Shown one piece after another: positions 1,831 through 22,541 of a stretch of 29,806 bases of DNA; position 1 is the first letter of the stretch; every line of letters begins with the position of its first letter. The notes beneath the pieces were generated by a model. It saw only the letters and a list, made by a program, of their open reading frames with translations. It made no database searches and had not been told where the DNA came from. The translations under genes and the position numbers were made by a program. Location of the stretch: positions 1 to 29,806 of the IMG/VR virus record IMGVR_UViG_3300009129_000065. One strand, written 5' to 3'. The stretch comes from a virus.

Positions 1831-1851
1831 TATCTTCTATAGGACAGGGTA
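1831..1851 (-). promoter_or_regulatory. Putative phage RNA polymerase promoter P1 (tail fibre)
   Basis: On the minus strand this 21-base element reads TACCCTGTCCTATAGAAGAT plus A. It matches the elements at 17271-17291 (one difference) and 22521-22541 (three differences). The TATAG core resembles the -4 to +1 part of T7-type promoters. It lies between the stop of the upstream internal virion gene and the RBS of the tail fibre, in the coding direction. Promoter function is inferred from repetition and position. Confidence 0.75.
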
Positions 1852-1852
1852 C

Positions 1853-1872
1853 GGGGCGACCGAAGCCGCCCC
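1853..1872 (-). other. Stable hairpin with UUCG tetraloop in the gap before the tail fibre
   Basis: On the minus strand GGGGCGGC, loop TTCG, GTCGCCCC form an 8-base-pair stem (one G-U pair) closed by a C-G pair around UUCG, the especially stable C(UUCG)G tetraloop. It begins six bases after the stop codon of the gene at 1879 and ends one base before promoter P1. No U-run follows, so it is not a classical rho-independent terminator; it could be a pause or attenuation hairpin or protect the 3' end of the upstream mRNA. Confidence 0.6.
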
Positions 1873-1878
1873 TTAGGG

Positions 1879-4800
1879 TTATTTGTCTTTCTGACCGAGG
1901 CTTGTCAGCCAGTCGCCTATGATCATGGTGTTCATCAAAGGCGCTGCTCGGAATGCTTTCTTATCTTGATAGTCAGCATCTCCTGCGGCTGCTTTGATAG
2001 TAGCACCGGGAATACGCAGTGCGTCGTTCGCCCAGCTAAATGCAGCAGGAGACGCAAGCACGTCTCCCGTGTTTCCGTAGCGATTGAAACGCAGGTGATC
2101 CATTCCAGTCATCATAGCAACCGGGTCGAAGTACATAGGAATAAAGCCTGTAGCGTTGGAGTAACTAACAGCACGTACGATATGCTCCATGTTGGTCATA
2201 TCCTTGCCTTCTGCGGCTGCACGGCTGTACGACACTAGCGCGGCCATACCGACACCGTATCCCAAGAGCGCTACCGACCGAGCACCGCCTACTTTAGTCG
2301 CATGTAGGAACTGCTTCTGAGAGGCCAGCATAGGGAAGGTCTTCAAATGCGTGAGCAGAGCACCCATGTCTGTGTGCATCCAAGGATCGGTTTCACCTGC
2401 CAAGGACTTCTGCACAAGGCGGTCTACGTTACGTACAACGCCAGAGCTAAACACTTCGTTGAGCTCGATAGGCCACTGATCGCCGTTGAGGCGCGTGACT
2501 ATTCCGTCTGCATCGAAAGTGACTGTGCCGTTGTCGATCAACCGCTTCATAGCTGCAATGTGATGCTCTTCAAAACCGAAGTCTAAGAACAGTGACTTGC
2601 TTTCCTCTGCGGTTAGGTCTCCCTTTCGGATAGACTGCATTATGCGGTTAGTCGTCATCAATGCGCCTGTCTTCTGCTGAAAACCTTTAATGTAGCGCAT
2701 ACCAGAAACGTAACTCTGCACGTTAACAAGGTTGCGAGAAGAGCGTCTAATCTTGCCTCTCCAATCGCCGTAGTCCATCAACGCGGCATCGTCTAGGTCT
2801 AGGTGCGGACTGAACATATCTTCGTCCCGCCACAACGTACCCGTCATAGCTTTGATGTCCTTGAGCAGAACTTGATCCCGGTCTTTAGCCGCCTTGTCCA
2901 AGATTGTGCGTACACCTGCTTGATCGAGGAAGTTTCGCATACCGTTCTGTGCAATGGCAGCAGCGGTTTCACCGAGCTGCGCGAAACCTACCTTGTTCAG
3001 CCAAGCGAGGTTAACAGCTCGTTTGATGTCAGATGTATAAATCGACTGAGACTCTGGTGCTCGATCCGGGTGCATCCCACTCCAACCCTTCTGAGGGCCA
3101 GCATCAAACGCCGTGAACATAGCACGCATTTCGTTCGGATGCAGGAAGTCTTTATGACCATCTGTAATACCGAGCGCTCGTTGCTCCGCCATCAAAGCTG
3201 TAATAACTTCTTCTCGTGCAGCGGGACTATCGATGCCTTTACGTGCTAGGGCTGAGCCCCCAGCCACACCGCGAGAGTATCGCGACCAGTCGCCTAGCAT
3301 GTCGTTGCTGTAGACGTCTACTAGCTTGAGACCAGAATCGCCGATGTCGATGTCCATATCTACGCCGTTACGAGACTTCGTAAAGCCAGCTTTACTCTTG
3401 TCGGCCTGTGCGCCTTTAAGACGCTTCATGATACCTTCGCGCTCAGTCTTGCTGAGTGTAGAGGATTGAAGCACTGTTTCGAGCCAATCTGCACCGTCAC
3501 CGGACAGTAGGCCAAAGACATTAGTGTCCACACCCTCTGACTGCGCCTTAGCTCGCTGTAGAACGGCCTTAGCAATTACAGCTGCGTCCTTTCCCTCACC
3601 TAATCCACGGCTTCTGAGACCGGCTGCTAGAGCCTCTTCGAGCTCTTCCTGTGTAAAGCGACCTTCGTCTAGGTACTTACGGATAGCGCGTCCCATGATC
3701 TTTTGTGGGTTGTAGTGCGGGTTCTTAGGCAGATCAGCCGTGCCACGCATAGGCGTCTGCTTTCCTCCAAAGCCAGTAAAGACGTCGTGTGCTGTGTTAG
3801 CTGCACCGTCATACATGTTCGCTGCACTAATGATACGCTGGTCAGATGTAGTCAGACCTGTGGTCGAGTAGTCTACGTCTGCATCGTCTACACGATTTAG
3901 GTGTGCATTCTCACGTGCGTTGCGCTCTAAACGTACCTGCCGATTGAACGCCTCAATAGCTCCCTGATTAGCGCCGAAACGGCGTGTAGAGAAGAACTTG
4001 TTCGGCATGTTGTCCGCAGCCCAGTCGTTCATGAGCTTAGAGACGTCTACGAAATTGTCGTTAATTCGTCCGTTATACACTCGCTGTAGTGCTGCTGCGT
4101 TGTTCGATCCACGGTTAGCGCCTGAGGCACTTTCCAAGATGTCTCGTCCAATCCAGTTACCTACGCGAGACTGTGTATCGTACAGCTTAGTTGCTACACG
4201 TGCGCCGCCAAGTCTAGCACCAATAGGGCTCTGTAGAACCTTCTCGAATGCGTTGCGTTCTTCCGCACGACGAGCGTCGAAGTCTGTGCCGCTGATACGG
4301 TCGTCTGCTCGATCGATCCAGTGAGCGGACGTAGCCGAGATGTCTGGATTGTCCAGCTGCAATGAGCGTCCTTCAAAGGTAGTACCCGATGCACGGGCAG
4401 CACCGATCGATTGCTGCTCTACGTCTGCCTCTGGCGGTGCCATAGGTGACGGGCCCGTAGGTTCATCTACGATGTCCTGTACGTTCAGTGCTGGGTCGCC
4501 TGTAGCGATCTGCTGATCGAGGTCTTTTGCCATCTGACGGGCAGACGGACCAAGTACAGCGCCTAAGCCTGTACCTGCGCCAGCACCCATGAGGATTGAC
4601 ATGATGAATGTGTTCTCAGCCTGTGAGTCGGCTGTCATTGCTTCAACGCCGCCAACCAGTGCACCTGCTTGAGCACCTGCTGCTGCGCCCTCGATAGCGC
4701 CCTGTACTCGCCGGGATGCGCTGACGCGTCTTCCAGCTGCTGCAATTGTACGGTAGCCGACCATACCACCTTTCAGTGGTGCGAAGATCATATCAAGGTC

Positions 4801-5367
4801 TACCATAGACGCAGCAAAGCGAGTAGCTCCACCGCCTGTCTGATAGGACAGTCTAGCAGCTTCGGCTCGTTCAGCAAGGATACGGCCCCGCGCACGGAAG
4901 GCTGCTTCTCGTGTCGGCAGACCTAAGAGGTACTCGAAGTCGTCGGCATCCATGCCCTCAAGGAGCTCTTCGGCGTCCTCAGCGCGTGTCGCCCACGATT
5001 CGCCGCTGTCATGCGCTCCGCCGATAACGCCCTTTAGAGCGCCTCCTACGACCGCTGCGGCCCTATCGAAGTCGAAGTCTCCCGGTGTACCGAACATCTC
5101 GGACGGGTCTTCTGGGACTGAGTTAGTTTCGTTGTATGTTTCGAGTGCTGCTGCACCCTCTTCGAGAGCTCGCGTCCCAATGCTGTAGGCTGCGGTTTGT
5201 CTTCCGCCTGCTGCGAGGTTCTCGGTAAATGTCATCTGGTCGCGCATCTCTTCGAGGTTTCTATCCTGAAACGTCGTCGATTGCGGTGCCTGTGTTTCTT
5301 CTTCTTCGGAGGAAGGCATTGCTTCGCTCACCAGCCCCTTACGGACTGTGTCAATAATTTGTACCAT
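1879..5367 (-). CDS. Internal virion protein, T7 gp16-like position (1162 aa)
   Basis: A very large soluble-looking protein encoded just before the tail fibre, the place held by T7 gp16 (about 1,318 aa), which is ejected into the cell and helps form the channel for DNA entry. The N-terminal 50 residues are polar and acidic. Two glycine/alanine-rich hydrophobic stretches, near residues 100-115 (AAAVVGGALKGVIGG) and about 220-275 (including GAIEGAAAGAQAGALVGG and MGAGAGTGLGAVLG), could be glycine-zipper or membrane-interacting segments. The rest is mixed helix with few recognisable motifs. I see no lytic transglycosylase domain here, unlike T7 gp16; a lysozyme-like domain is in the neighbouring gene instead. 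The start ATG has GGAG five bases upstream. Function comes from position and size; sequence similarity could not be tested. Confidence 0.75.
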   Translation of the reverse strand: MVQIIDTVRKGLVSEAMPSSEEEETQAPQSTTFQDRNLEEMRDQMTFTENLAAGGRQTAAYSIGTRALEEGAAALETYNETNSVPEDPSEMFGTPGDFDFDRAAAVVGGALKGVIGGAHDSGESWATRAEDAEELLEGMDADDFEYLLGLPTREAAFRARGRILAERAEAARLSYQTGGGATRFAASMVDLDMIFAPLKGGMVGYRTIAAAGRRVSASRRVQGAIEGAAAGAQAGALVGGVEAMTADSQAENTFIMSILMGAGAGTGLGAVLGPSARQMAKDLDQQIATGDPALNVQDIVDEPTGPSPMAPPEADVEQQSIGAARASGTTFEGRSLQLDNPDISATSAHWIDRADDRISGTDFDARRAEERNAFEKVLQSPIGARLGGARVATKLYDTQSRVGNWIGRDILESASGANRGSNNAAALQRVYNGRINDNFVDVSKLMNDWAADNMPNKFFSTRRFGANQGAIEAFNRQVRLERNARENAHLNRVDDADVDYSTTGLTTSDQRIISAANMYDGAANTAHDVFTGFGGKQTPMRGTADLPKNPHYNPQKIMGRAIRKYLDEGRFTQEELEEALAAGLRSRGLGEGKDAAVIAKAVLQRAKAQSEGVDTNVFGLLSGDGADWLETVLQSSTLSKTEREGIMKRLKGAQADKSKAGFTKSRNGVDMDIDIGDSGLKLVDVYSNDMLGDWSRYSRGVAGGSALARKGIDSPAAREEVITALMAEQRALGITDGHKDFLHPNEMRAMFTAFDAGPQKGWSGMHPDRAPESQSIYTSDIKRAVNLAWLNKVGFAQLGETAAAIAQNGMRNFLDQAGVRTILDKAAKDRDQVLLKDIKAMTGTLWRDEDMFSPHLDLDDAALMDYGDWRGKIRRSSRNLVNVQSYVSGMRYIKGFQQKTGALMTTNRIMQSIRKGDLTAEESKSLFLDFGFEEHHIAAMKRLIDNGTVTFDADGIVTRLNGDQWPIELNEVFSSGVVRNVDRLVQKSLAGETDPWMHTDMGALLTHLKTFPMLASQKQFLHATKVGGARSVALLGYGVGMAALVSYSRAAAEGKDMTNMEHIVRAVSYSNATGFIPMYFDPVAMMTGMDHLRFNRYGNTGDVLASPAAFSWANDALRIPGATIKAAAGDADYQDKKAFRAAPLMNTMIIGDWLTSLGQKDK

Positions 5368-5386
5368 GTTCTCTCCGATTGAGTAT

Positions 5387-5410
5387 CCCCTCCCCGATTA
5401 AAGGGAGGGG
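5387..5410 (+). terminator. GC-rich hairpin; terminator-like only for plus-strand transcription
   Basis: CCCCTCCC and GGGAGGGG form a perfect 8-base-pair stem around the 8-base loop CGATTAAA. In the plus direction it is followed by TTTTATTTA, the layout of a rho-independent terminator, yet no plausible plus-strand gene exists. In the minus (gene) direction the hairpin is followed by ATACTC, not a U-run. It lies in the 49-base gap between two internal virion genes, 19 bases upstream of the next start codon. It may stop antisense transcription, or act as an mRNA processing or stability structure on the sense transcript. Confidence 0.5.
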
Positions 5411-5416
5411 TTTTAT

Positions 5417-8400
5417 TTAGTTCTGTACTTGTGCCAAGGCACGGTTCACTTCTCGCTGGTGATACCATTCACCCATGCGTTCCAGAGTCCATTCGGCTGG
5501 TAGGTCAATGCCTACGCCGTCACGGCCCATAACGAATAGATCAACATCTACACCGTTCGTCTCGTGCATTCCGATAGGACGTACACCAGTTTCACTCAGG
5601 CTGATCTGACGAGCAGTCTCACCTGTCATGTGGTCTTCACCGAACCAGAGCTCTTCTGCCGATGCTCCTACTAGAACACCCCAGCGATCTGGGTCTTGGG
5701 CAGCTTGGTCTGCGATAAACGCTTTGATGACCTTCTGCTCGATACCAGTGATACCAGAATACGATCCTGCGCGTTCACCGAACATCTGATCAACGACTGC
5801 ATGACCGCGTTCCATGACTACCAGACGGTTGCCGATTACAGAGGTACGTCCTAAGACGTCTTCCTGCGTCATCTCAACGATCTTCTCCATAGGGATACCC
5901 AAGTTAGGGTCGAGTGCGAACCTGCGTTCAGCCTCACCTACGATCAGATCAGTCAGCATGTCTTCGTTTTCCTGTGTGAAGACTGCGGCCTCGTCCATAC
6001 CAGTACGTAAGAACGTGTCTTTGATCGTACCCTGTTCCCACCAGCTCTGTACCCAGCCGACGTTCTGTCCAGACATATAGGCACGGACGCCAGCAGATAC
6101 TTGCTGCGCCACGTCGATCTCAGCTGAACCGGGTCGGCCAGAGGTCTGCATAGTGGTGGCGCTAGAAGATGCACGGTCAAGACGACCTTGTGCCGTCTTC
6201 AATGCCGAGGCGATAGACTCAGGGTCAGCTGATGGACCGCCTGCTAGGACTAACAGAGCCTCAGCACGACCACGTGCCTGTCCGTCAGTGAACATGGACT
6301 TCGCTACCTCATGGTGCCCAGCTTTAATTAGGTCCGAGTAGGTAAGCAGAGAGTTCACTACAGTAGGATTAGCTTCGCCGTCTGGTGCGAGATTAGCGAG
6401 CATCTGTGCAGAGTAGATGTCCTGCGCGTCCTGTGATACGACACCAGCTTGTATCCAGTTCTGGATAGTCTGTGCCTGTATCTCTTGGCCGTAGGCTTCC
6501 TGAGGAACCTCACCGCTCTCGACACGTCTGTTCACATCTTTAGCAGTCTGTATAGCAGTCTGTTCTTCATGCAAAGCACGTAGACGCGGAGTTAGCTGCG
6601 CCACGCTGCCAGTCAGGACCGCAGTGTCGATGATGTTTTGATCACGTTCACGATCTGCGCGTACCTTAATCTGCTCTTGAACGAGGGGTGCTATCGTCTC
6701 GATCTGCTTGTTTAGGTTCGTGTCTTGAATACGGATACCGCGATCTGCTGCGAGCTGCCGTGTAGCATCCATGTAAGCCCGCCCCATAGTAGCGATTTCC
6801 GTAGAACTCAGGTTAGGGTCTTGGATAGAAACCTTGAACGCTTCGAGACTTTCAGCCATCTCGCCTCGGAAGGCCCACATAGCATCTGCTGCTTCTGTGT
6901 TACCTGCTTCTGTCTCACGCTTAGCTGCGTTAGTTATAGACGTCAGACGTTGGTCATTGAGGTAGCTCAACGTACCGCGTGTCTGCTGCAAGTCTCTCGC
7001 CTCACGACGCTGGTTGTAGAGGTCTTCGTATTGGCTGTAGTTGATCTCACCAGCCTGTAGGCGCTGCGTAGCGAACTGCATGTCGCGCTGTAGCTCGTAC
7101 TCGCCAGTCATCTGCTGTTGCTCTAGGAGACCGTCGCGCAGTGCCTGTGCTGATTGCAAGGAAGTCTGTGCGATAGATAGGCGCTGTGCTGCTGTCTGGT
7201 AGATGTCCTCTCCCGCCATCTGACGGTTGAGTTGATCGATGTATCCAGCTGTCTCTGCACTCAATGTGCTGACGTCGCCGTCGTAGGCGTCTGCTGCGTC
7301 ACGACCATCGAGATACGCGATAGCTGCGCGTGTAGTATCGCCGCCGTAGTGCTCGACGTTCTCTACCCACGAATACTGGCCTGTACGGGTCATAGTAACC
7401 TGCTCACGGCTGTAGCCGGGGTCGTTACCTTGCCACGCTTCCCATGCGGTATGTCCCTGTGTGTCGTAGATGTACTGACCGAGACGGTCCTGCATAGCAG
7501 GAGTAAGACGCTCGTTGCCTGTTAGACCGAGGCCGTCACGCGCTGTCTTCATGGTGTCGCCGATGATCTGGTACGCTCCGATAGGAGTTGATACCACGCC
7601 ACCGTTACGCGCCGCCACGTACTGTCCGTATGCACCGCTAGGGCTTTGGAACGCAATCGCCTCGTTGATTGTCATGTCTGTGACACGTACGCCTGCGAAT
7701 GGGTTGCCGGGTAGCTCCGAGTCGTTGAAGAGCTTGTTGTAATCTCCGCCGCTCTCTTTAGGGAAGATGTGTACTTCTGCCATAGCACGGAAGCTGGCTG
7801 GCCCACCACCTGCGTCGAGGTTGTTGATCATAGGCTGTGTGAGGTTGCCGACTGTAGCGTAGTCGCCACGCGCCTGTGCTGCTTCAATAGCCACGACTTC
7901 TCGTGTCTGATCCATGATCTCTGCTTGGCGTTGACCGGCGTATGCCACACCAGCTTCATGTGCGTTGAGTGTTAGATGGTGCTCATTGAAGAGCGCAATC
8001 ATGTCCTCAGTCATGCCTTCCTGATCACCGGTGTATCCGCCTGCGTCGATACGCTCTTGAATTTCCTGCATACCACGCTGTAGCTTAGGATTGAACTCAG
8101 CACGTGCACGCTGCTGGAAGCGAGCCTCAGCTGCGTTGATCTGGTTGACCAGCGCTGTAGGCATGTCGTCCATAACACCAGAGGCTTTCAGCTGCTGGTA
8201 CGCTACAGGGTTCATGCGATCGAATGCAGCTACGACGCCCTCTGCCAGTGCCGCTTGACGGCGATCTGCGCTGAGCATCTGTGAACCAGAGCCCTCGACG
8301 TCCATCGCGTTAGCAATGAGTTCGCTGAATGAGCTAGGGTCTTGCGACAACATATGCACGGACTCAACGAGCGTGTCGTATGTGTTCTGTTCTTGGTTCT

Positions 8401-8938
8401 GCATGTACGCCTGCGTGTGCTGTGACACGAGTGCAGGCATCTGGTTAGCCATGTTCTCACGGACCATACGGGCTGTCTGTGGATCGAGCCCTTCGATGGT
8501 CTGGTTCAAACGGTTTACGTATGCTTGACGGAAGGTGTCAGGGTCGTCAGCGTACTGCGACTGTCTGATCATTTCCTGTTGTGCGGAGAGAAGGGAGGCG
8601 GACATAGACTGCGCCTGCATGACGCGGTAGCCTTGGTTGGCCCACTTGTCGCCCTCCATCTCTAAATCTTCGAGGGTCTGGCCCTGCTGGTATGCCATCT
8701 GCCCGTCGAGGACAGAGGCTTCGTGTTCTACGTCTGCACGTTGCTGCCACTTCTGGCCCATCCAGTTCGTAAGTGCAGATGCTAGCTGCGCCTCTCGTGA
8801 ATTGGTCACATTAGGGGCAGCAGGAACCTGCGTGTTCGGGATATGTAGTTCAGACGATGTCGGGATGACGGGGTTTACTTCCGCCTTTCCTGCGAGACTA
8901 TCTGTTACGCCTTCACGGCGCTGTGTTCCTGTTGCCAT
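5417..8938 (-). CDS. Internal virion protein with embedded lysozyme-like domain (1173 aa)
   Basis: Second of three internal virion genes, in the position of T7 gp15 (747 aa) but much longer. Long Gln/Ala-rich helical regions flank a compact domain at about residues 388-505: FPKESGGDYN, with E395 a candidate catalytic glutamate, then VTDMTINEAIAFQ, then STPIGAYQII and a helical end near YDTQGHTAWEAW. This order (E-S-G-G, then a G-A/R-Y-Q segment) resembles phage lambda-type lysozyme/transglycosylase folds used to open peptidoglycan locally during DNA ejection. T7 keeps such a domain at the N-terminus of gp16, so here it has a different location. The ATG at 8938 follows GGATAGGAATACATA. The upstream gp14-like gene ends nine bases before the start. 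Seen: motifs and domain position. Inferred: enzymatic role. Confidence 0.8.
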   Translation of the reverse strand: MATGTQRREGVTDSLAGKAEVNPVIPTSSELHIPNTQVPAAPNVTNSREAQLASALTNWMGQKWQQRADVEHEASVLDGQMAYQQGQTLEDLEMEGDKWANQGYRVMQAQSMSASLLSAQQEMIRQSQYADDPDTFRQAYVNRLNQTIEGLDPQTARMVRENMANQMPALVSQHTQAYMQNQEQNTYDTLVESVHMLSQDPSSFSELIANAMDVEGSGSQMLSADRRQAALAEGVVAAFDRMNPVAYQQLKASGVMDDMPTALVNQINAAEARFQQRARAEFNPKLQRGMQEIQERIDAGGYTGDQEGMTEDMIALFNEHHLTLNAHEAGVAYAGQRQAEIMDQTREVVAIEAAQARGDYATVGNLTQPMINNLDAGGGPASFRAMAEVHIFPKESGGDYNKLFNDSELPGNPFAGVRVTDMTINEAIAFQSPSGAYGQYVAARNGGVVSTPIGAYQIIGDTMKTARDGLGLTGNERLTPAMQDRLGQYIYDTQGHTAWEAWQGNDPGYSREQVTMTRTGQYSWVENVEHYGGDTTRAAIAYLDGRDAADAYDGDVSTLSAETAGYIDQLNRQMAGEDIYQTAAQRLSIAQTSLQSAQALRDGLLEQQQMTGEYELQRDMQFATQRLQAGEINYSQYEDLYNQRREARDLQQTRGTLSYLNDQRLTSITNAAKRETEAGNTEAADAMWAFRGEMAESLEAFKVSIQDPNLSSTEIATMGRAYMDATRQLAADRGIRIQDTNLNKQIETIAPLVQEQIKVRADRERDQNIIDTAVLTGSVAQLTPRLRALHEEQTAIQTAKDVNRRVESGEVPQEAYGQEIQAQTIQNWIQAGVVSQDAQDIYSAQMLANLAPDGEANPTVVNSLLTYSDLIKAGHHEVAKSMFTDGQARGRAEALLVLAGGPSADPESIASALKTAQGRLDRASSSATTMQTSGRPGSAEIDVAQQVSAGVRAYMSGQNVGWVQSWWEQGTIKDTFLRTGMDEAAVFTQENEDMLTDLIVGEAERRFALDPNLGIPMEKIVEMTQEDVLGRTSVIGNRLVVMERGHAVVDQMFGERAGSYSGITGIEQKVIKAFIADQAAQDPDRWGVLVGASAEELWFGEDHMTGETARQISLSETGVRPIGMHETNGVDVDLFVMGRDGVGIDLPAEWTLERMGEWYHQREVNRALAQVQN

Positions 8939-8947
8939 TATGTATTC

Positions 8948-12579: not shown

Positions 12580-12625
12580 CAAACAAAAAAAGAGCCCCCA
12601 CTCCGGTTAAGGAATGAGGGCTCTT
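12580..12625 (-). terminator. Strong rho-independent terminator after the major capsid gene
   Basis: On the minus strand AAGAGCCCTCATTCC pairs with GGAGTGGGGGCTCTT over 15 positions (two G-U pairs) around the loop TTAACC, followed at once by TTTTTTTGTTTG. It begins eight bases after the capsid stop codon. This is a textbook intrinsic terminator in the same place as the T7 late terminator T-phi, which follows gene 10 and leaks enough for tail genes. It should make capsid mRNA the most abundant and lower expression of the tail genes. Confidence 0.93.
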
Positions 12626-12632
12626 GATTAGA

Positions 12633-13604
12633 TTAAGTGATGGACTGTACTGCGTAAGCACCATCTGGGCGGTTGAAGTTCGCACCGTAGGCCATCAACG
12701 AGTCGATGAACCACTGACGCTCAATCTTAGAGAAGTACACGTCAGATGTAAGTGGGATAGTTTCACCAGCCATGATAGCGGATGGGTGCAGGATCAGAGC
12801 CTCTGTACGAGCCTCAGCAGCAGAGACGTCATAGAAGTCGCCGTTAGCTGTGGTTGACAGAGGGTGGCCTGTGATAGCCGCAGAAGGCAGACGGTTAGTC
12901 CACACAACTGGGATACCCATGACAGTCTTGAACTTGCCGGAAGCGAAGTCGCCGTTGTCCATGGAGAAGTCGCGGTCGATGATCTTGTCGTTGTTGAGCA
13001 GCACGTTGTACTGTTCAGGCTTAACAAAGACTACGCACTCGTCTGTGTCCATGTCCTTTTCCTGCATGGATACTACACCAGCTTGGATGGCTTCGTAGAA
13101 TGCAGTTGGGTCTAGCTCGTCGCCAGCGGAACCAAGAGTAGCAGTTGTACCTGCACCGAACGCGCCGTTAAGGCCAGATGGAGCAGATGCAGCAGCACCT
13201 TTGATACCAGCAATCAGCATGGACTCGTCGAACAACTTAGCAAGTTCCTTGCCGTGGTCTTTACCGAGCTCAGCGCGTGCGTTGAAGTCGATCTGGAACT
13301 CGTTCAGCATGGAGCGGTTGTCCCGTGCCATAACGACTGTATCGATTGTTACTGATGTGCTACCGAATGCAGTCGCTGTAGCAGGTGGACGTACACCAGC
13401 AGTCAGAGTAGTCAACGATGTCCGGCCAACGCGGCGGTTCAACAGAGTGTCAGTGCCTTTGACGGGCTTGACATTGATGAAGTTCCGCATCATGGACTTC
13501 TTGTGGAATTGTGAGTCAACAACACCACCGTACTGTTCGATCATATCGGCAACGGCCTGATCGGATAGGTGGGTGCTGTCGCTAGGAATGTTTGCGCCTG
13601 ACAT
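12633..13604 (-). CDS. Major capsid protein, T7 gp10A-like (323 aa)
   Basis: A 323-residue protein with the HK97-type capsid pattern of T7-like phages: N-terminal helix with MIEQYGGVVDSQFHKKSMMR, a beta region with RRVGRTSLTTLTAGVRP, and a C-terminal part with HPSAIMAGETIPLTSDVYF and a final NRPDGAYAVQSIT. It is slightly shorter than T7 gp10A (345 aa). AAGGAG lies ten bases upstream of the ATG. It follows the scaffold gene and precedes a strong terminator. I see no evidence of the frameshifted long form known from T7 gp10B: the gene is followed by only eight bases before the terminator stem. Capsid identity rests on order (connector, scaffold, capsid, tubular A) plus sequence pattern. Confidence 0.93.
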   Translation of the reverse strand: MSGANIPSDSTHLSDQAVADMIEQYGGVVDSQFHKKSMMRNFINVKPVKGTDTLLNRRVGRTSLTTLTAGVRPPATATAFGSTSVTIDTVVMARDNRSMLNEFQIDFNARAELGKDHGKELAKLFDESMLIAGIKGAAASAPSGLNGAFGAGTTATLGSAGDELDPTAFYEAIQAGVVSMQEKDMDTDECVVFVKPEQYNVLLNNDKIIDRDFSMDNGDFASGKFKTVMGIPVVWTNRLPSAAITGHPLSTTANGDFYDVSAAEARTEALILHPSAIMAGETIPLTSDVYFSKIERQWFIDSLMAYGANFNRPDGAYAVQSIT

Positions 13605-14487: not shown

Positions 14488-16050
14488 CTATGACTGTGCT
14501 TGTTGGTCTACGGCTACTTTACCAGCGTGCTCGGCTACATTAGCCGCGCCTTGCATTTCCTGTAGACGTCCCGCTTCTGCGAGAGCCTGCTGGCGGTTAG
14601 CTTCCATCTCTTCTGCTGTGTTCAAGAATGCCTTGAGGTCCACGTTGCGGTTCGTGAAGACGAACTTAGCGAAGCGTAGTGCGTTCATGGCACCACGTAC
14701 ATCTTCCGGCACGGCTTCCATCATCTGCAAGTCGCCGATGGCTAGACGCAGGTTGTCGATCTGACCTTCCTTGGACAAGGACTCAAGACCAGTGGTCACG
14801 AGTACCTCGAACTGATCACCAAGGCCACCGACTTCTGCATTGAAGTCTACCTTGCTGATAGCGAAGTCAGCTTCACGCTGCTGCCATTGCATAGCCAGCT
14901 GAGAGTACAAGCCTCCGAAGGCGCTTTCGAGCTCGTTAGCTACCATACGGATTTCTTCGGCTGTAACTCTCTCAGCTTGGCGCACGGAGGACATAAGGAA
15001 TGTCTGGGACAGTTCCTGCTCCCATTGCTGGACAAGCTGTACGAGGGTCTGCAAATCATTGCGAGCTCGGACCTCAGGTACAGTGATGTCTTCTCCGTTT
15101 CCGGGCCAGTATGTGCCGCGTGGTGCGGCGTTCAGTTCAGCGATCTGTAGGGACAGAGGCGAACCGGGGCGTACAAAGAACTTGATGTCAGCTGTGACAG
15201 ACGCTAGGTCTACAACTGCTTCTGTGCAGACGTCGATCTGGTGGAACATCGTGGCGTTGTCTTCAACGAGACCGCGGCCATAGTTCTCACCTGCGAACAG
15301 AGACCAGTCTAGGACCAAGAGATCATAGTCTTTCTCGTTCTGGTACATCGGCTTGCCGACGGGGATGCCCTCGACTTCCTGTGTGATCTTCCAGCGCTTA
15401 CCTTCTTTGATGTAGTGAGTGTAGAGGTCCAGCATATCGTTGTCTTTGATACGCGGCTGAGCCTCAAGGATCAAGGTTTTGGTGGCGTCATCGAATGTAT
15501 CGAAACGCTTCTTGTCAGCAAGGACTACTTCGAACTCTTTGCCTTTGAGATCGCGGCGGACGCCGTATCGATCGACAGGATAGAGCACGCGCTCTCCTGT
15601 AGGCAGGCGGCGCAGCAGTACATTACCAGTAACGATAAGGTGCTTAGCTGCCATGATGGCTACGGGGCGGTACTCGACAAGGTTCAGATGGCGCAGCGCG
15701 GCCTCAGAAATCTTCGAGGTTGCGTCGCGTACCATCTCCTGCATCTGGCCGGAGTTCTCTTCGCCGATCTCTTTTTCGAGTTCGAGCTTAGCCTTAGGTG
15801 TCATTGCGATTGTAAAGAACGGGCGGCTCACAGGGAACAGCACGTCTACGATTTTGTTGGCTAGGTGGTTGACCCAGCGAGCGCCTTTGTTGACGCTTCC
15901 ATGAATCTGTTCAGTGTTCTCACCACCGTCAGGCTGCATGATCGCAGCTACGGTCCAGCGAGCGAAGGTCTCAGAGCGGGTGATCAAGTCACCCTTCTCT
16001 GCATCCATCTGTTCCCAAACATCATCGATACGATGTTGCGGTGTTTTCAT
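14488..16050 (-). CDS. Head-tail connector (portal) protein, T7 gp8-like (520 aa)
   Basis: 520 residues against 536 in T7 gp8. The N-terminal sequence (ARWTVAAIMQPDG, then NHLANKIVDVLFPVSRPFF) and the signature QAERVTAEEIRMVANELE at about residues 358-375 followed by GGLYSQLAMQW are strongly characteristic of the T7-type head-to-tail connecting protein. It forms the dodecameric ring through which DNA is packaged and ejected, and nucleates the capsid with the scaffold encoded next. The Gln/Ala-rich C-terminus (about residues 480-520) fits the barrel/crown region. The start ATG overlaps the upstream stop as TAATG. A terminase partner is not in the window. Confidence 0.95.
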   Translation of the reverse strand: MKTPQHRIDDVWEQMDAEKGDLITRSETFARWTVAAIMQPDGGENTEQIHGSVNKGARWVNHLANKIVDVLFPVSRPFFTIAMTPKAKLELEKEIGEENSGQMQEMVRDATSKISEAALRHLNLVEYRPVAIMAAKHLIVTGNVLLRRLPTGERVLYPVDRYGVRRDLKGKEFEVVLADKKRFDTFDDATKTLILEAQPRIKDNDMLDLYTHYIKEGKRWKITQEVEGIPVGKPMYQNEKDYDLLVLDWSLFAGENYGRGLVEDNATMFHQIDVCTEAVVDLASVTADIKFFVRPGSPLSLQIAELNAAPRGTYWPGNGEDITVPEVRARNDLQTLVQLVQQWEQELSQTFLMSSVRQAERVTAEEIRMVANELESAFGGLYSQLAMQWQQREADFAISKVDFNAEVGGLGDQFEVLVTTGLESLSKEGQIDNLRLAIGDLQMMEAVPEDVRGAMNALRFAKFVFTNRNVDLKAFLNTAEEMEANRQQALAEAGRLQEMQGAANVAEHAGKVAVDQQAQS

Positions 16051-16406: not shown

Positions 16407-16416
16407 AGGTTTCTCC

Positions 16417-16932
16417 TTACAGGCGTAGCGCCCAATATTGTTCGGCGGGTTTATACCCTTTCCGTGTTAAAATTCTTTCGGCTATCCTCGGAGATGTCTC
16501 CAAGGTGCACATGCGTACTTCGTCTACGCCGTTGTCTTCTCCGGCCTTCTGGAACGCATTCAACAACAGGACGCCCTGATTGTCTGTGCAGTACCAGCCC
16601 TGTTCAACGAGGTAGGCTTGATCCCGGAACCCGTCTGGAATTATCCAGCCGCCGATGAAGCCGGTGAGCGATTCTTCAACTTCGTGTTCGTAGACCGCGC
16701 CGTCGTACAGCTCGTGCTTATCGCTGACTGCAGCGTCAGCATAGTAGACCGTACCCTCGTACAGTTTGTGCTTGTCGCTGACTGAGACGTACACTACGCC
16801 TTCCTTCACCATACGATAGAGAGTTTTGGCCGTTTTGTATCCATTCAGAGGTACGTCGTAGTATTCCGTGTTCATGGCGCGGACCAAGTATTGTAGCTGG
16901 GGCAGATCGCGTAGTTTTGCTTCCCTGATCAT
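16417..16932 (-). CDS. GNAT-like acetyltransferase, putative, with internal duplication (171 aa)
   Basis: The N-terminus MIREAKLRDLPQLQYLVRAM is a typical GNAT opening (strand, then helix with acidic/leucine pattern). The middle has GFIGGWIIPDGF and a helix LLLNAFQKAGEDNGVDEVRM, and the end has SPRIAERILTRKGYKPAEQYW, like the C-terminal GNAT helix and last strand. The classical acetyl-CoA loop (Q/R-x-x-G-x-G/A) is not clear, so activity is uncertain. Residues about 50-85 hold two copies of an 18-residue unit beginning VSDKH-LY-G-VY, not expected in the fold. GNAT-like genes just before the connector occur in several T7-like phages; targets are mostly unknown. Start ATG overlaps the upstream stop as ATGA. 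Confidence 0.7.
   Translation of the reverse strand: MIREAKLRDLPQLQYLVRAMNTEYYDVPLNGYKTAKTLYRMVKEGVVYVSVSDKHKLYEGTVYYADAAVSDKHELYDGAVYEHEVEESLTGFIGGWIIPDGFRDQAYLVEQGWYCTDNQGVLLLNAFQKAGEDNGVDEVRMCTLETSPRIAERILTRKGYKPAEQYWALRL
16690..16784 (-). repeat. Tandem duplication inside the GNAT-like gene (54-base period)
   Basis: Bases 16690-16730 and 16744-16784 are the same 41-base block with six differences (35 identical), spaced exactly 54 bases apart. This gives two copies of an 18-residue unit, VSDKHKLYEGTVYYADAA and VSDKHELYDGAVYEHEVE. Most differences are at codon third positions or conservative changes, so the duplication has been kept in frame under selection. Confidence 0.9.
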
Positions 16933-17102
16933 AGCCGACCTCCGATCATAGCTAGCATGGACTCTTTGATGTCCCGCTTAGCCTGTTCGTATCCGATCTC
17001 GTAGTCACCATCACCCTTTACCAGAGTCTTAGCTTCCAGTAGTAGACTAAGATGGTCTCTTACTGGTTCTGCTATAAGGGTTGCTTGTTGTGTCTGTAGC
17101 AT
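16929..17102 (-). CDS. Short unknown gene (57 aa) in the late leader
   Basis: ATG at 17102 with AGGA six bases upstream, ending with TGA that overlaps the next ATG (ATGA). The product begins MLQTQQATLIAEPVRDHLSL and is predicted to be mostly helical, ending KESMLAMIGGRL. It contains DYEIGYEQAKRDIKES. It lies between a 46-codon gene and the GNAT-like gene, downstream of putative promoter P2. No family is recognised. The clean overlap with its neighbour and good RBS are the evidence that it is a gene. Confidence 0.65.
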   Translation of the reverse strand: MLQTQQATLIAEPVRDHLSLLLEAKTLVKGDGDYEIGYEQAKRDIKESMLAMIGGRL

Positions 17103-17110
17103 TTATTATC

Positions 17111-17251
17111 CTATTCTATTACTGTAGCAGTAATCTCTTGGATAACCTGTTCTCCTAGTTCTTCTTGTAGTTCTCTAGGTATATTTAATCCTGATAGATG
17201 ATACTGTATAGCTAGTATAAGCATATCTTCCAGAGATAAGTCATTATACAT
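17111..17251 (-). CDS. Short unknown gene (46 aa), first after promoter P2
   Basis: Start taken at ATG 17251, with AGGA eight bases upstream; an earlier in-frame ATG at 17260 touches the AGG directly and is less likely. The product, MYNDLSLEDMLILAIQYHLS, then GLNIPRELQEELGEQVIQEI, then TATVIE, is acidic and helical. Codons are unusually A/T-rich (many ATA, CTA, GAA, AGA), unlike the adjacent RNA polymerase and structural genes. It is the first gene transcribed from P2, with about 25 bases of leader. No family is recognised. Confidence 0.65.
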   Translation of the reverse strand: MYNDLSLEDMLILAIQYHLSGLNIPRELQEELGEQVIQEITATVIE

Positions 17252-17270
17252 GAGTTTCATCCTATCTGAA

Positions 17271-17291
17271 TATCTTCTATAGGACAGGTTA
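17271..17291 (-). promoter_or_regulatory. Putative phage RNA polymerase promoter P2 (late/structural)
   Basis: The minus-strand element reads TAACCTGTCCTATAGAAGAT plus A, differing from P1 at one of 21 positions and from P3 at two. It lies six bases after the stop codon of the RNA polymerase gene and 20 bases before the first small late gene. It would drive the structural module down to the capsid terminator. Function is inferred from repetition, spacing and the T7-like TATAG core. Confidence 0.8.
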
Positions 17292-17296
17292 AGGTT

Positions 17297-19738
17297 TTAG
17301 CCGAAGAAATACGGGGAATTTAGAACCTGTTCAAGGTCCAGATCGCCCTTCTCTGGCAGAGGTGGTAGCTCGATACCGAGAGCTTTCTCGTGTGCTTCCT
17401 TGAACTCCTTGAGCAAGTCGTTCTCGGAGTGCAGCTTTACGAACTGTTCTTGGATGATCCGTTGGAGCTTACCGGCGTCAGCTGCGTGGGTTCCGAAGTC
17501 ATCGTGGATCATGGCGAAGGAGTTGATACCCTCTGCTAGACAGGCTACGATCACCATCATCATGTGCGTGGCGTCAACGTGGTGCACCTGATTAGGGCTG
17601 CTGCCTTGTCGCTGCTTACGTACGTCGATGTCGTTGGTGTTCGACGCTACCCGGAGGAACAGCTTGCCGCCGATCTGGGTCTCGATCTGCCGGGTCTTGA
17701 ACTTCATACGCTTCTGGATCACTGGGAAGCCCAGAGGGGAGGTGTACGTCAGTCCGTGACCTGCCTTGCCGATGATGGCCGAGGCGTCCTGTATCCACTT
17801 CATAGCGGCCCGTGCTGCGATCACAACCTCACCGATGCTTTCCCAAAGGATAGGGGCGAGGAAGATGCAGTGCTTGAACGCTGTATTCTCTGCGAAGCTG
17901 CGCTCAGCCTTCTCACGATACCACTTGTAGATCGAGCCAGTGCACGCCTGCTGTGTGCTGCCGTAGGGCAGGGTCATGACAGGGGTCTTGGCTAGGCTGC
18001 GTGGCATACTATCGCCGAGGATGAACAGCCAGTTCTTCGCTGCTGGTGTGTCCATTGCTTTCAGCTTAGCGTAGCACACGTCAGCAACGCGCTGGTAGAT
18101 GTCAGCTGGTGTCTCAGCAGGCATGAGGTTCACAGCGCTGCCGCCTACGCTGTCACGCAGCATAGCGGAGAAGTGCTGTAGGCCGTTGCAGGAACCGTCG
18201 AGGCCCACGGGGAGGTGGGACACGAAGTCGCGGTGATCAGCTAGCTCCATGCAGTCACGGAACTCGAAGCACCATGCGAGGAACTGCCAAGGCTTGTCTG
18301 CCTGTGTCCAGACACCGCGGTTCCCGATGGGATCGTCGGCTGCTGCCATGAACTGCTGAGCGTTCTCGAACACCCAAGCTACGCGGTCGTCGTACGATGC
18401 TTTGTCGTAGCCGTACTTGTTCGCGCCGTTGATCATGAACCAGCGGAAGCCGTCTTCACCGAGAGCCTTGCCCTCAGAGAACTCAATCAGCGCCTTGCTG
18501 TGGTCCGTACCCTGTGGGTTCAGGCCAGCTGCTGTGGCGTATACGCGGCCACGGAAGTCTGTTTGATACACATAGAAGAACTCGTCGTGCTTGGTGAGCT
18601 CTTGTGCCAGCCGCATGGTGCGGGAGAAGGCTAGGCTCTTAGCACGGCGCTCGTTCTCAGCTGTGTAGAGCTCACGCATCTCCGCCTTCCAGTTATCAAA
18701 CGCCTCTGCCAGAGGGCTACCCTCAGCAGGCTTGTGATCTTCTGGCAGACCGTCGAGAGGACATGCAGGGAACTCGATCGGTGCTGCACGAGGCATACCG
18801 CATTCGAGGTTGTTCTTCCACACGTACTGCATGACGTCCTTGAGGCGAGTGTTTACCCGCCAGCCGGTGCGCTGCATAGCGTTGATGGCCTGCGTTACGG
18901 CAGGCATTTCAGCGTTCTGGTACGCGTGTTTACGCGACCCGTCGTACGAGTTCGACTTGATCAGCGGGGTGCGGGCTCTAAGCTCAGGGCTGTAGAACCC
19001 GCCCTCCGTGTTCGACACCCAGTCTGCCGGGGGGATAATGCAGGGCATACGATCCGGGCTCATAACTTCCACGGAATCGTTGTGTCGATTGATCCAGTCG
19101 AGACACTCGTCGGTTGGGACGAGCAGCACGATTGTTTGGTTACGCTTGTTCAAGCTCTTCTGCTTCTTGACCAAGTCTGTCACTTCCATGATGAGGGAGA
19201 CGATGAGTGCGCCAGCAGCGACCCTGTCTTCACCTGACCAGTCAGTCCACTGTAGACCACGGTCCTCGCCCTTGCCGCGGAGCACGTTGCGCTTGTGGCT
19301 ATAGCTGGCGATGTTCTTGCGATCGAAGTCTCGGAGCAAGCTGTCGTAGTATTCTTTGTACTCAGTCTCGAAGTGCACGAAACGCAGCTCGTCCTCGCAC
19401 CGCATCCCGATCTGCATACACATGGTTGTGATGTTGTTGTTCGGGCTGTGGATGGAGTTGATGATTGCACGAAGGCCCAGCAAGGCTACCTTGTCTGGGT
19501 CAATCGTGGCAATGAGCTTAGCTACCTTGTTCCGGCGACGTCCGTCAGGGTGCTTACCGTCGAGGTAGAGCTTGATGTGATCCGCGATACGGATGACGTA
19601 GCTACGCAGAAGCGTGCTTCCCGCTGATGTCTCGGAGTTACGGGTCTCCTGTGCCGCTGCCTGCTGGCTGCGGAAGCGTTCTACGCCCTTGTTGACCATG
19701 TGTTCTTCTAGGTCAAGCTGATCTTGTATCGTCGGCAT
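17297..19738 (-). CDS. T7-type single-subunit DNA-directed RNA polymerase (813 aa)
   Basis: All catalytic landmarks of the T7 RNA polymerase family are present: DFRGRVYATA (residues 394-403, the D-x-x-G-R motif), VGLDGSCNGLQHFSAM with D514 (T7 D537), RSLAKTPVMTLPYGS with K584 and Y592 (T7 K631 and Y639), and MIHDDFGTHAAD with D746 (T7 D812). The C-terminus NSPYFFG parallels the aromatic T7 end FAFA. At 813 residues it is shorter than T7 (883). The promoter-specificity loop should lie near residues 680-715 and is not conserved. AAGGGAT precedes the ATG. Its position next to the structural genes is phiKMV-like. It is the last gene of the block headed by putative promoter P3 and sits directly upstream of P2, so it should drive both. 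Confidence 0.97.
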   Translation of the reverse strand: MPTIQDQLDLEEHMVNKGVERFRSQQAAAQETRNSETSAGSTLLRSYVIRIADHIKLYLDGKHPDGRRRNKVAKLIATIDPDKVALLGLRAIINSIHSPNNNITTMCMQIGMRCEDELRFVHFETEYKEYYDSLLRDFDRKNIASYSHKRNVLRGKGEDRGLQWTDWSGEDRVAAGALIVSLIMEVTDLVKKQKSLNKRNQTIVLLVPTDECLDWINRHNDSVEVMSPDRMPCIIPPADWVSNTEGGFYSPELRARTPLIKSNSYDGSRKHAYQNAEMPAVTQAINAMQRTGWRVNTRLKDVMQYVWKNNLECGMPRAAPIEFPACPLDGLPEDHKPAEGSPLAEAFDNWKAEMRELYTAENERRAKSLAFSRTMRLAQELTKHDEFFYVYQTDFRGRVYATAAGLNPQGTDHSKALIEFSEGKALGEDGFRWFMINGANKYGYDKASYDDRVAWVFENAQQFMAAADDPIGNRGVWTQADKPWQFLAWCFEFRDCMELADHRDFVSHLPVGLDGSCNGLQHFSAMLRDSVGGSAVNLMPAETPADIYQRVADVCYAKLKAMDTPAAKNWLFILGDSMPRSLAKTPVMTLPYGSTQQACTGSIYKWYREKAERSFAENTAFKHCIFLAPILWESIGEVVIAARAAMKWIQDASAIIGKAGHGLTYTSPLGFPVIQKRMKFKTRQIETQIGGKLFLRVASNTNDIDVRKQRQGSSPNQVHHVDATHMMMVIVACLAEGINSFAMIHDDFGTHAADAGKLQRIIQEQFVKLHSENDLLKEFKEAHEKALGIELPPLPEKGDLDLEQVLNSPYFFG

Positions 19739-19743
19739 CTATA

Positions 19744-20124
19744 CTATCCCTTCATAGCTGCTCGTTTCTTCCGCGCTTTAGCGTTCTTCGCTAGGCGCTT
19801 CTCTTCTTCTGTCTTGTGGGTTGGATAAATCAAGCCACCGTGCTGAGGCTCTTTGTGCCTCTGACGGTAGGCCATGAGGTTATCAAGCCACTCGTCTACT
19901 GTCAATTTGTTCTTAGCACGTCGGGCTAGGTTATGAATCTTGCCCTCAATACCGTTGCAGTTAATACACAGTACGTCTCGTATGTAGCCCGTGGTGTGGT
20001 CGTGATCGAGGGCAGGCTTCTTACCGCCTGCCTTCATACTACCCTCACACAACGGGCACTTGTACTTCTGCTTAGCTAACAGCTTAGCTCGTACTGGTGC
20101 GATCTGTGCTGTCTTGAGTTTCAT
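19744..20124 (-). CDS. Recombination endonuclease VII-like nuclease (126 aa)
   Basis: A His-Me (HNH-type) nuclease with the endonuclease VII pattern: CPLC (C23, C26), then LDHDHTTGYIRDVLCINCN at residues 39-57, with C53 and C56 completing the zinc site and D40-H41-D42-H43 the metal/catalytic segment. T4 endonuclease VII of this family resolves branched DNA; in T7-like phages that lack endonuclease I, such genes probably clear branched replication intermediates before packaging and may help break host DNA. The C-terminus is very basic (ARKKRAAMKG). The start overlaps the upstream membrane-protein stop as ATGA. It precedes the RNA polymerase gene by five bases. Confidence 0.92.
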   Translation of the reverse strand: MKLKTAQIAPVRAKLLAKQKYKCPLCEGSMKAGGKKPALDHDHTTGYIRDVLCINCNGIEGKIHNLARRAKNKLTVDEWLDNLMAYRQRHKEPQHGGLIYPTHKTEEEKRLAKNAKARKKRAAMKG

Positions 20125-20318
20125 TTATACAGCCTCTGTCTACGAACCTCGTAGTATACCTCCCGCCATATGAGCGCTAAAAAAATAAGAGGAATTATAG
20201 AAACTAAAGCCAGCACAATAATTTCAGTGTGGTACACTAGACCGACGCCTAGTGCGAGAAACGCTAGAATTACACCTACAACTACGGCTGTTGCCCACAG
20301 CGCTGCTATCTTATCCAT
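20121..20318 (-). CDS. Small membrane protein with two predicted transmembrane helices (65 aa)
   Basis: Two hydrophobic helices, about residues 7-28 (LWATAVVVGVILAFLALGVG) and 32-52 (EIIVLALVSIIPLIFLALIW), are followed by a basic tail (REVYYEVRRQRLYK). Size and topology would fit a small class II-type holin, but the position among replication genes, not with lysis genes, argues against a firm holin call. AGAAGGAT lies about eight bases before the ATG. The start overlaps the 47-codon zinc-ribbon gene by eight bases, and the stop overlaps the endonuclease VII start (ATGA). Confidence 0.75.
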   Translation of the reverse strand: MDKIAALWATAVVVGVILAFLALGVGLVYHTEIIVLALVSIIPLIFLALIWREVYYEVRRQRLYK

Positions 20319-20454
20319 CTTCTTGTATCCTTCTGATTAATACCTGCTTGTACTTCGCCCCGCACGTCTTGCACTGGACCCGCTGGTCAACAGCCGAGAT
20401 GTGGGGGCGGGGAGCTTTGATCTCCGTGTCGCAGTAATTGCATTTGAACTTCAC
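20311..20454 (-). CDS. Zinc-ribbon microprotein (47 aa, GTG start)
   Basis: A 47-codon frame starts with GTG at 20454, overlapping the exonuclease stop as GTGA, and ends eight bases inside the next gene. AAGGA lies nine bases upstream. The product contains C5-N-Y-C8 and C28-K-T-C31 (FKCNYCDTEIKAPRP, then VQCKTCGAKYKQVL), a clear four-cysteine zinc-ribbon pattern, with a basic C-terminal helix. It probably binds nucleic acid or a polymerase; the target is unknown. Too short for usual gene-length cut-offs, but the paired CxxC motifs and the two overlaps make it convincing. Confidence 0.8.
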   Translation of the reverse strand: MKFKCNYCDTEIKAPRPHISAVDQRVQCKTCGAKYKQVLIRRIQEDG

Positions 20455-21626
20455 TTACTCATTTCCTTTAGCCATTCGATGACGTCGTCAGGGTTATTGT
20501 TCCGGCGCATCCAGAGCAGCTGCATGTCTGCGATCATGTGCTGCTGCCATGTTGTTGACCTACCGTCGCGGTAGTCGTGCCACTCGTACGTCGAGCCTGA
20601 CCACAGCCAAGCACATACTCGGAAGCATTGCCAGTCTGTCGTGCAGTTCTCTAGGTACTCGTACGCTGCGACTGGGCCTACCTTCGTAGACTTGCCCTTG
20701 AGGTTACGCGTGTCTGGGCAACCCTTAATGTGATCAGCGGTGTCGCCCATGAGCATCTGTGCCCAGAAGAACTTCGTTCCCCAGCCGAGCACCTTCTTAG
20801 TCGTCGTGCTGGTGTCGATCCAGATATCTCCGAAGGGGTCCGTCTCGATCACGACTTCGTCTTGGAAGCAGTAGTGTAGACCGGGGGCCATGCGGAGGTC
20901 TTTGTCCTTGGATACGATCACGGAGTTCTCAGGGTCGTTGTAGTTCGCCTGAGCCATGCCGTCGTCGGCCTCTTGATCGAAGTGGATAACTGCGTTCGGT
21001 AGCTCACCTATGAAGGCTCTGATGGCCTCTAGGTACATTGGCTTATCACGCCCCTTACGGTTGCCTTGGTACTCCTGAGTGAGCGCCTGATCGTCTCTGT
21101 GGCCCTTTGTGGACGCGTTAGGTGTGATGTGTGCCACGTAACTCGTAGCACCTGCCATACGCATGAGGTGATCGAGGCCGTTAAGCGCGTTGTTCTTCAT
21201 GTCCTCCAATGGTACGCGAGGCTTGAGTCCTTCAAGCTGTTCCTTGGTCTCAGCAGAGACTTGATAGCACATGAAGTCTGCGTCGATGTGGGCTACCCTG
21301 TTCGGCACTGCCGGAGGATAGTTCTTATGCTGTTTGGTCTGGTCTGGTAGGTTAGTTGGTATCTTCATCTTCCATACCCTCTCGTATATGTTATGCAGTC
21401 CGTTCTTGTCAGGATGCTTCCGAACCCACATACCAGATGCAGGTTCGAAATGCTTCTTGAAAAAGTTGTCGAGCTTAGCGTTACCAGTAATGATGCTGAG
21501 GTCTACTTGCTCTGACAACCGATCGAAGTCATGGTCCGACATGATCGGAGTGTCCATGTACTCGTAACAGTATGCCGCAACCGATAACCGGATGCGGCGT
21601 CTGCGTTCAGCCTCAACCTCAGTCAC
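20451..21626 (-). CDS. FEN-type 5'-3' exonuclease (T7 gp6-like) with ligase-like N-terminal segment (391 aa)
   Basis: Residues about 110-310 carry the flap-endonuclease/T7 gene 6 pattern: HIDADF (D115, D117), a YQGNRKGRDKP loop (186-196), QEADDGMA (E219, D221, D222), VSKDKDLR (238-245) and LMGDTADHIKGCPD (292-305, the GDxxDxIxG motif). These acidic residues bind two metal ions. The enzyme would remove RNA primers and degrade host DNA. The first 90 residues are extra: AYCYEYMDTPIMSDHDFDRL resembles the Ia helical segment of NAD-dependent DNA ligases. The start is GTG at 21626, sharing its G with the previous stop (TAGTG); no nearby ATG is available. The gene follows the putative ssDNA-binding gene. 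Confidence 0.87.
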   Translation of the reverse strand: MTEVEAERRRRIRLSVAAYCYEYMDTPIMSDHDFDRLSEQVDLSIITGNAKLDNFFKKHFEPASGMWVRKHPDKNGLHNIYERVWKMKIPTNLPDQTKQHKNYPPAVPNRVAHIDADFMCYQVSAETKEQLEGLKPRVPLEDMKNNALNGLDHLMRMAGATSYVAHITPNASTKGHRDDQALTQEYQGNRKGRDKPMYLEAIRAFIGELPNAVIHFDQEADDGMAQANYNDPENSVIVSKDKDLRMAPGLHYCFQDEVVIETDPFGDIWIDTSTTTKKVLGWGTKFFWAQMLMGDTADHIKGCPDTRNLKGKSTKVGPVAAYEYLENCTTDWQCFRVCAWLWSGSTYEWHDYRDGRSTTWQQHMIADMQLLWMRRNNNPDDVIEWLKEMSK

Positions 21627-22486
21627 TACAGACCGAGTGCTGCGAGAGGGTCTTCTTCCGCAGTAGACGGCACGTTCTCGCCGCCCTTTTGCTCAGTCGT
21701 AGTCTCTGCCTTAGGGGTTGGGGCTGGGTTAGGTGCCAAGTCTTCCTTGATCGGAACACCGATACCAGCCACCAGAGCTTCCAGCGGGGAGCCGATGAAG
21801 TTCGATGCTGCCATGGCCTCGTTCTGGATGAAGTTCTTGCTGACCTCGATGTCTTGGCCCTTGCCGTCGTTCTTGGTGTAGGTACCGTCGATGAAGATCG
21901 AGTCCCACTGTTCCTTGCTTGGGTTAGACCAGAGCAACAACTGAACAGCATGTGTAGCTTCCGGTACGTCAAGGATCGTGGTCTCGTTAGTGATCGGGTC
22001 AGTCACAGAAGGTGCACCGATGTCCCACACGCCGTCAACCTTGATGTTAGCGTACGTGTTCTTGCCGTCCTTCGACAGGTTGTGTTTGATCTTCACGAGG
22101 AAGCCTTCACCCAGCAGCTGTGCCATGTGCTTGATGTCTGTCCGACCAGCGAGCATCTTCTTGAAGAGCTTCTGGAAGTTCGACTTCTCGCTTGACGAGA
22201 TCGTCAGCTTCTCACGGTGAATGTTAGTACGTGTCATCTTGACGCCGTCTTTCTCATATTCCGTGATGTGCTTAGGACCATTGAGTTCAAAGGTCAGACG
22301 CACTTCTGCTGCATCCGGCTTGTCTACGCCTTGGTATGGACGCTGTGGTTGTTTACCGATTTCAACGTATCCAATGAAGCGTGCTGTAGTATAACCTTCT
22401 GGTGCTACTGTACGCTCAAAGGCTTTAGTTTCTGTTTGGTCATCATACTGAGCTGCATTACCTGCTTGATCTAGTAGATTAGTCAT
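21626..22486 (-). CDS. Probable ssDNA-binding protein (286 aa)
   Basis: First gene of the block after putative promoter P3, between DNA polymerase and 5'-3' exonuclease, where T7-like phages keep a gp2.5-type protein. The N-terminal part (about residues 28-200) looks beta-rich with mixed charges, including GYTTARFIGYVEIGKQPQRP and FELNGPKHITEYEKDG, as in phage OB-fold-like binding proteins. Residues 250-275 are a Pro/Thr linker, and the tail ends AEEDPLAALGL, an acidic-hydrophobic tip like the C-termini by which single-strand binders contact polymerase and helicase. AGGAG lies about ten bases before the ATG. The role is inferred from tail and context; identity as a binding protein is not proven by motif. 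Confidence 0.6.
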   Translation of the reverse strand: MTNLLDQAGNAAQYDDQTETKAFERTVAPEGYTTARFIGYVEIGKQPQRPYQGVDKPDAAEVRLTFELNGPKHITEYEKDGVKMTRTNIHREKLTISSSEKSNFQKLFKKMLAGRTDIKHMAQLLGEGFLVKIKHNLSKDGKNTYANIKVDGVWDIGAPSVTDPITNETTILDVPEATHAVQLLLWSNPSKEQWDSIFIDGTYTKNDGKGQDIEVSKNFIQNEAMAASNFIGSPLEALVAGIGVPIKEDLAPNPAPTPKAETTTEQKGGENVPSTAEEDPLAALGL

Positions 22487-22520
22487 TGTATTTCTCTCCT
22501 ATTACAATGTTATATTTTCG

Positions 22521-22541
22521 TGTCTTCTATACGACAGGTTA
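22521..22541 (-). promoter_or_regulatory. Putative phage RNA polymerase promoter P3 (middle block, includes the RNA polymerase gene)
   Basis: The minus-strand element reads TAACCTGTCGTATAGAAGAC plus A, with two differences from P2. It begins one base after the DNA polymerase stop codon. An AT-rich leader of about 34 bases separates it from the ssDNA-binding gene. Because the RNA polymerase gene is in the same downstream run of genes, this site would allow the polymerase to amplify its own expression. Confidence 0.75.

Follow-up and report, generated by a model that had tools for sequence, protein, structure and literature searches.

Three near-identical 21-base elements in the 29,806 nucleotides of virus record IMGVR_UViG_3300009129_000065 analysed here (the window) are very probably promoters of the phage's own T7-type RNA polymerase (RNAP), with a probability of roughly 0.9 judged from sequence comparison. 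This reading was preferred because of the strand and place of the elements, their spacing to start codons, their absence elsewhere, the sites kept in relatives with diverging sequence, and the covariation with the RNAP specificity loop. Promoters of phage RNAPs are of a known kind, and the window phage represents the expected system with a new spelling; the original prediction had valued a clear set because such promoters have been hard to recognise in phiKMV-like genomes, but it is not the first such set, as promoters of relatives had been predicted before (PMC11475235, PMC3765740). The element sequence, the clade-wide slot and the RNAP-element covariation are new; no earlier statement of the latter two was found in the literature searched, which left most subscription journals outside its scope.

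All recognisable genes of the window were on the minus strand and followed a phiKMV-like order: helicase, exonuclease, holin, a dATP/dGTP diphosphohydrolase-type protein, DNA polymerase, SSB-like protein, exonuclease, endonuclease VII and RNAP; then small ORFs, portal, scaffold, capsid, tail tubes, internal virion proteins and tail fibre (coordinates in Table 1). The single coding strand and the RNAP immediately 5' of the structural block place the phage in the Autographiviridae with a phiKMV-like layout, and the RNAP belongs to the T7 family, with all the catalytic equivalents (D537, K631, Y639, D812) intact. The phrog_862 protein was assigned a putative SSB role from its gene position. An acetyltransferase-like protein (phrog_1249; 16417-16932, minus strand) was encoded where phiKMV has gp28/Rac, a protein that shuts off the host RNAP; in the phage collection searched, homologues of this type were present only in MedPE-SWcel-C56 (C56), ParMal1 and ParKuw1. 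The protein at 25226-25897 (minus strand) matched “endolysin; inhibits RNA polymerase” in PHROGs and the dATP/dGTP diphosphohydrolase N-terminal domain in Pfam, and its lysis label looks wrong. PHROG and Pfam searches gave no match for a 1173-aa protein in the internal-virion slot (5417-8938, minus strand). The strong intrinsic-terminator-like hairpin immediately 3' of the capsid gene had the same position as T7 T-phi.

Table 1. Elements, genes and hairpins of the window, and corresponding elements of other phages
Feature	Position	Strand	Sequence	Remarks
P-SSB	22521..22541	-	TAACCTGTCGTATAGAAGACA	predicted +1, G at 22527; 41-nt leader, SSB-like ATG 22486
P-late	17271..17291	-	TAACCTGTCCTATAGAAGATA	predicted +1, G at 17277; 26-nt leader, ATG 17251
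P-fibre	1831..1851	-	TACCCTGTCCTATAGAAGATA	predicted +1, G at 1837; 24-nt leader, tail-fibre GTG 1813
DNA polymerase	22543..24915	-		precedes P-SSB
SSB-like protein	21626..22486	-		phrog_862, family of unknown function; first gene after P-SSB
Exonuclease	20451..21626	-		phrog_107; after P-SSB
Endonuclease VII	19744..20124	-		phrog_423; after P-SSB
Single-subunit T7-type RNAP	17297..19738	-		813 aa
46-codon ORF	17111..17251	-		first gene after P-late; small similar ORF in L007
Portal (head-tail adaptor)	14488..16050	-		after P-late
Major capsid protein	12633..13604	-		after P-late
Intrinsic-terminator-like hairpin and T tract	12590..12625	-		strong; immediately 3' of capsid gene
Tail fibre	2..1813	-		after P-fibre; extends off record end
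Hairpin	1853..1872	-	GGGGCGGCTTCGGTCGCCCC	abuts P-fibre upstream; no T run
ParMal1 element			CCTATCCCTCACATATAGACA	3 copies
ParKuw1 element			CGAACCCACCATAGGACA	3 copies
Atu_ph03 element			(G/C)TTATCCTTCGTATAAGGAA	6 copies
C56 element			CCTTATGGACCCCTATTGGA	4 copies: 2 and two variants
G005 element			CCCCGCCTTATAG	4 copies
L022 element			TTAGGCGGTCGCTATAAGAG	2 copies
L007, L097-L099 element			CTTAACCATCC(A/G)CTATGAA	post-RNAP and post-DNA-polymerase sites
L021 element			TTAATCCCTCCCTTAAGAT	
L101 element			CTAATCCCTCCCTATAGAG	
L019 element			TTATCCCTCCACTATAGAGA	
phiKMV (L015) repeats	20489, 20675, 34953; 710 (minus)		GGTTATGTCACMYACANWGGA	one directly after RNAP gene
LUZ19 (L121) repeats	21115, 21312, 35590; 731 (minus)		GGTTATGTCACMYACANWGGA	one directly after RNAP gene

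The core CCTGTC(C/G)TATAGAAGA was found exactly three times in the window, on the minus (coding) strand only. The pattern CCTGTCSTATAGAAGA occurred without mismatch at 1833-1848, 17273-17288 and 22523-22538, always on the minus strand, and a scan of both strands of the whole window (an incomplete 29.8 kb virus record lacking the early and terminase regions) to 3 mismatches gave no fourth copy; the expected number, 0.42, is a figure allowing 3 mismatches and is hence too mild on the observed rarity. As first described, the three 21-mers differed from each other at 1-3 positions. They constituted the sole dispersed 16-mer family of the window with at least 3 same-strand copies at up to 1 mismatch, and none of 100 dinucleotide shuffles contained any such family.

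All three elements were located, without ORF overlap, in the 582 bases (2.0% of the window) outside ORFs, and each started 1-27 nt past the stop codon of the gene before it. P-SSB separates DNA polymerase from SSB; P-late separates the RNAP from the late block, at a site (6 nt beyond the RNAP stop) also filled in relatives; and P-fibre lies in the gap from the last internal virion protein to the tail fibre. These ~20-bp intergenic repeats thus had the placement originally proposed, in gaps, in the coding direction and at the start of gene blocks, and no copies were seen inside genes or on the plus strand. It speaks against the promoter reading that copies number only three in this incomplete record and that the motif scan gave none directly 5' of the major capsid gene. 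A TATA-G initiation region (-4 to +1) was present in all three, +1 being assigned from the G of TATAG, and the predicted leaders contained ribosome-site-like sequence (AAGGAG in that of P-fibre).

The elements might instead be host promoters, of the sigma-70 or another type, or else form an operator for some phage regulator, and a sigma-70-like pair does occur by chance near 17270-17243. This is very improbable: the conserved block lacks a -35/-10 pair, sigma-70 matches did not exceed the shuffle expectation, and the TTGACA...TATACT pair found at the same place in L081 is quite unlike the elements; besides, neither a host promoter nor an operator would give a reason for covariation with the phage RNAP. 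Signals at the RNA level, either for processing or for termination of read-through transcripts, are less probable still. A stable hairpin lies upstream of or overlaps two copies, with CGACAGG-N8-CCTGTCG (22523-22555, minus strand) overlapping P-SSB and a UUCG hairpin adjoining P-fibre, but P-late has none (z = +0.7), the conservation concerns the linear sequence and excludes the hairpin, and a T run is absent. The hairpin at P-SSB could matter in read-through RNA.

As promoters of the phage RNAP, the elements would each span ~23 bp (-17 to +6) and comprise an AT-containing CTTAA/GTTAA (-16 to -12), the recognition core CCTGTC (-11 to -6), which would be read by the RNAP specificity loop, then a TATA part for melting and the start G. 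In phiKMV, early and middle genes are transcribed by the host enzyme and late genes by the phage enzyme (PMC7552054). By this scheme, the host RNAP would act first on the earlier genes, including that of the RNAP; the phage RNAP, on which the elements would depend, would then initiate at +1, driving the structural block from P-late and topping up fibre expression from P-fibre. Read-through from P-SSB would cover the SSB, nuclease and RNAP genes, and by reaching the last of these the polymerase may boost its own synthesis.

The closest named phages by RNAP identity were C56 (49%), the Paracoccus phages ParMal1 (45%) and ParKuw1 (44%), and Atu_ph03 (42%). In relatives, the gaps after the RNAP, after the DNA polymerase and before the tail fibre held a repeated, strand-specific element whose sequence was phage-specific (Table 1); in Atu_ph03, ParMal1, ParKuw1, C56 and G005 no copy was on the opposite strand. 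The motif search over relatives hence found the same gaps filled, but with a spelling that differed phage by phage. Divergence was graded among the nearest relatives (L007, L097-L099, L021, L101 and L019), and the recognition core would be drifting jointly with the specificity loop while the sites are kept. In a generic test of ~80 loci, many of them short fragments, a 20-mer of the post-RNAP gap recurred on the same strand at 18-20 of 20 positions in about one third, against typically 15-17 on the opposite strand (a few controls at 18-19). An exact 20-mer search of IMG/VR matched only a near-identical contig (L004), and a search for fibre-side neighbours with the internal virion protein returned only one contig, of the same phage. 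The repeats of L056, L058 and L043 were set aside as partly palindromic with a high control-strand score; a dimer-site reading of the palindromes in the Atu_ph03 and L034 elements was rejected, since these follow from C at -7 to -5 and GGA at +1 to +3. A tandem pair of promoter-like elements preceded the SSB-like gene of L101 (6369 and 6395), and in L031 an apparent tRNA-like sequence (ending GGTTCAAATCC...) lay behind a promoter-like element, ~50-140 nt past the RNAP stop.

The equivalent of T7 RNAP N748 is Glu in the window RNAP and Asp in T3 and LUZ100, and C at -11 is common to the window elements, T3 and the TSS-mapped LUZ100 promoters; the window elements and T3 also have C at -10. Covariation was analysed in 29 non-redundant RNAPs of at least 38% identity, by PGLS corrected for the tree (built without the specificity loop) and for locus composition. 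Because the +1 register is ambiguous in relatives without TATAG, the measure, C minus G over the 30 nt that follow the RNAP stop, was register-free. At the 748 position, an acidic residue was associated with +4 C over G (p ~5e-4), and a basic residue with -5, favouring G (p ~0.006, three cases only). The acid-to-C trend is in line with N748D, which switches T7 RNAP to T3 promoters (PMC11477551). C56 is an exception, with Asp and yet GG at -11/-10; therefore this residue is not the whole recognition code. The covariation matches the recognition part to the specificity loop at the level of the clade, and for the window RNAP by itself such a match is presumed. The C/G content of the elements across the clade thus followed the 748-equivalent residue, in keeping with the suggestion that this polymerase has probably evolved its own recognition sequence.

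The upstream half, originally called unlike T7, is better described as T3-like (AGTTAACC / TTAACC): AGTTAACC of T3 phi1.1 is identical in P-SSB at -17 to -10. Similarly, TATA-G was present as noted, but the initiation part is SP6-like, CTATAGAAGA at -5 to +5 of P-late and P-fibre being identical to one SP6 promoter. Positions -9 to -6 (TGTC) match neither T3 nor SP6, with which 9-12 of 23 positions are shared overall. Promoters had been predicted for Agrobacterium phage Atu_ph02 (Atuphduovirus) and Rhizobium phage RHEph02 (PMC11475235, Table 1), both of the same RNAP clade (42% and 40% identity) and in the same gaps, with a recognition sequence unlike that of the window phage; the published Atu_ph02 prediction, TTATCCTTCGTATAAGGAATA, equals the Atu_ph03 element found de novo here, and that of RHEph02 is similar to the element of the RHEph02-like L038. 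In the screen of PMC11475235, whose library includes Atu_ph02 and RHEph01/02, none of the 16 enzymes whose DNA-binding domain had less than 30% identity to that of T7 was active on its predicted promoter; prediction is therefore not proof. Promoter prediction is also described as the limiting step for using new phage polymerases (PMC11475235). The RNAP/element pairs found across one clade share a slot and have a residue that tracks base preference; they make a phiKMV-like polymerase-promoter code directly testable and are candidate orthogonal pairs.

In LUZ100, TSS-mapped phage-specific promoters (PMC10134795) occupy matching sites, phi2 just after the RNAP and tandem phi2/phi3 before SSB; LUZ100 differs in promoter sequence (AATTACCACACAGGTATGGA), RNAP (36% identical), T7-like gene order and temperate features. 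For JG068, with a phiKMV-like gene order, a 16-bp motif was predicted (PMC3765740) before the post-DNA-module gene and the tail fibre, and also before the capsid; as given in PMC11475235 (TCAGTAGACTATCTAG), it differs from the window elements. The Roseobacter autographivirus paper reported no promoters.

Another reading is that the elements are places where one strand is nicked site-specifically, as happens in the virion DNA of phiKMV-like phages (CGACxxxxxCCTA/CTCCGG). The nick motifs of phiKMV and LUZ19 are intergenic and on one strand, one lying ahead of the phiKMV gene that occupies the SSB position (PMC3517423), and the same doubt was voiced over the KP34 motif by its authors (PMC4411677). 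The nick consensus is nevertheless absent from the window (2 matches at 3 mismatches vs. 7.4 expected), and the elements have a T7-family initiation sequence at their ends, open leaders with ribosome sites and show clade-wide specificity-loop covariation; this reading is very unlikely. For phiKMV and LUZ19, the “phage-specific promoters” annotated in GenBank read CGACN5CCTACTCCGG, which is the published nick motif (PMC3517423). It is possible, though rather doubtful when taken jointly, that the post-RNAP gap is a widely kept promoter slot, that the charge at T7-748 is a general part of the recognition code (C with an acidic and G with a basic residue, near -11/-10), and that these GenBank promoters are nick sites, the true ones being the GGTTATGTCACMYACANWGGA repeats; promoters of unculturable phages could then be read from the RNAP sequence and one gap. 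The GGTTATGTCACMYACANWGGA pattern was derived from its own copies in two closely related phages, which makes its shuffle statistic optimistic. The post-RNAP gap of both phages contained GATTATGTCACCCACATAGGA, with near copies ~190 nt further downstream, towards the end of gp37 and, on the opposite strand, at the left end.
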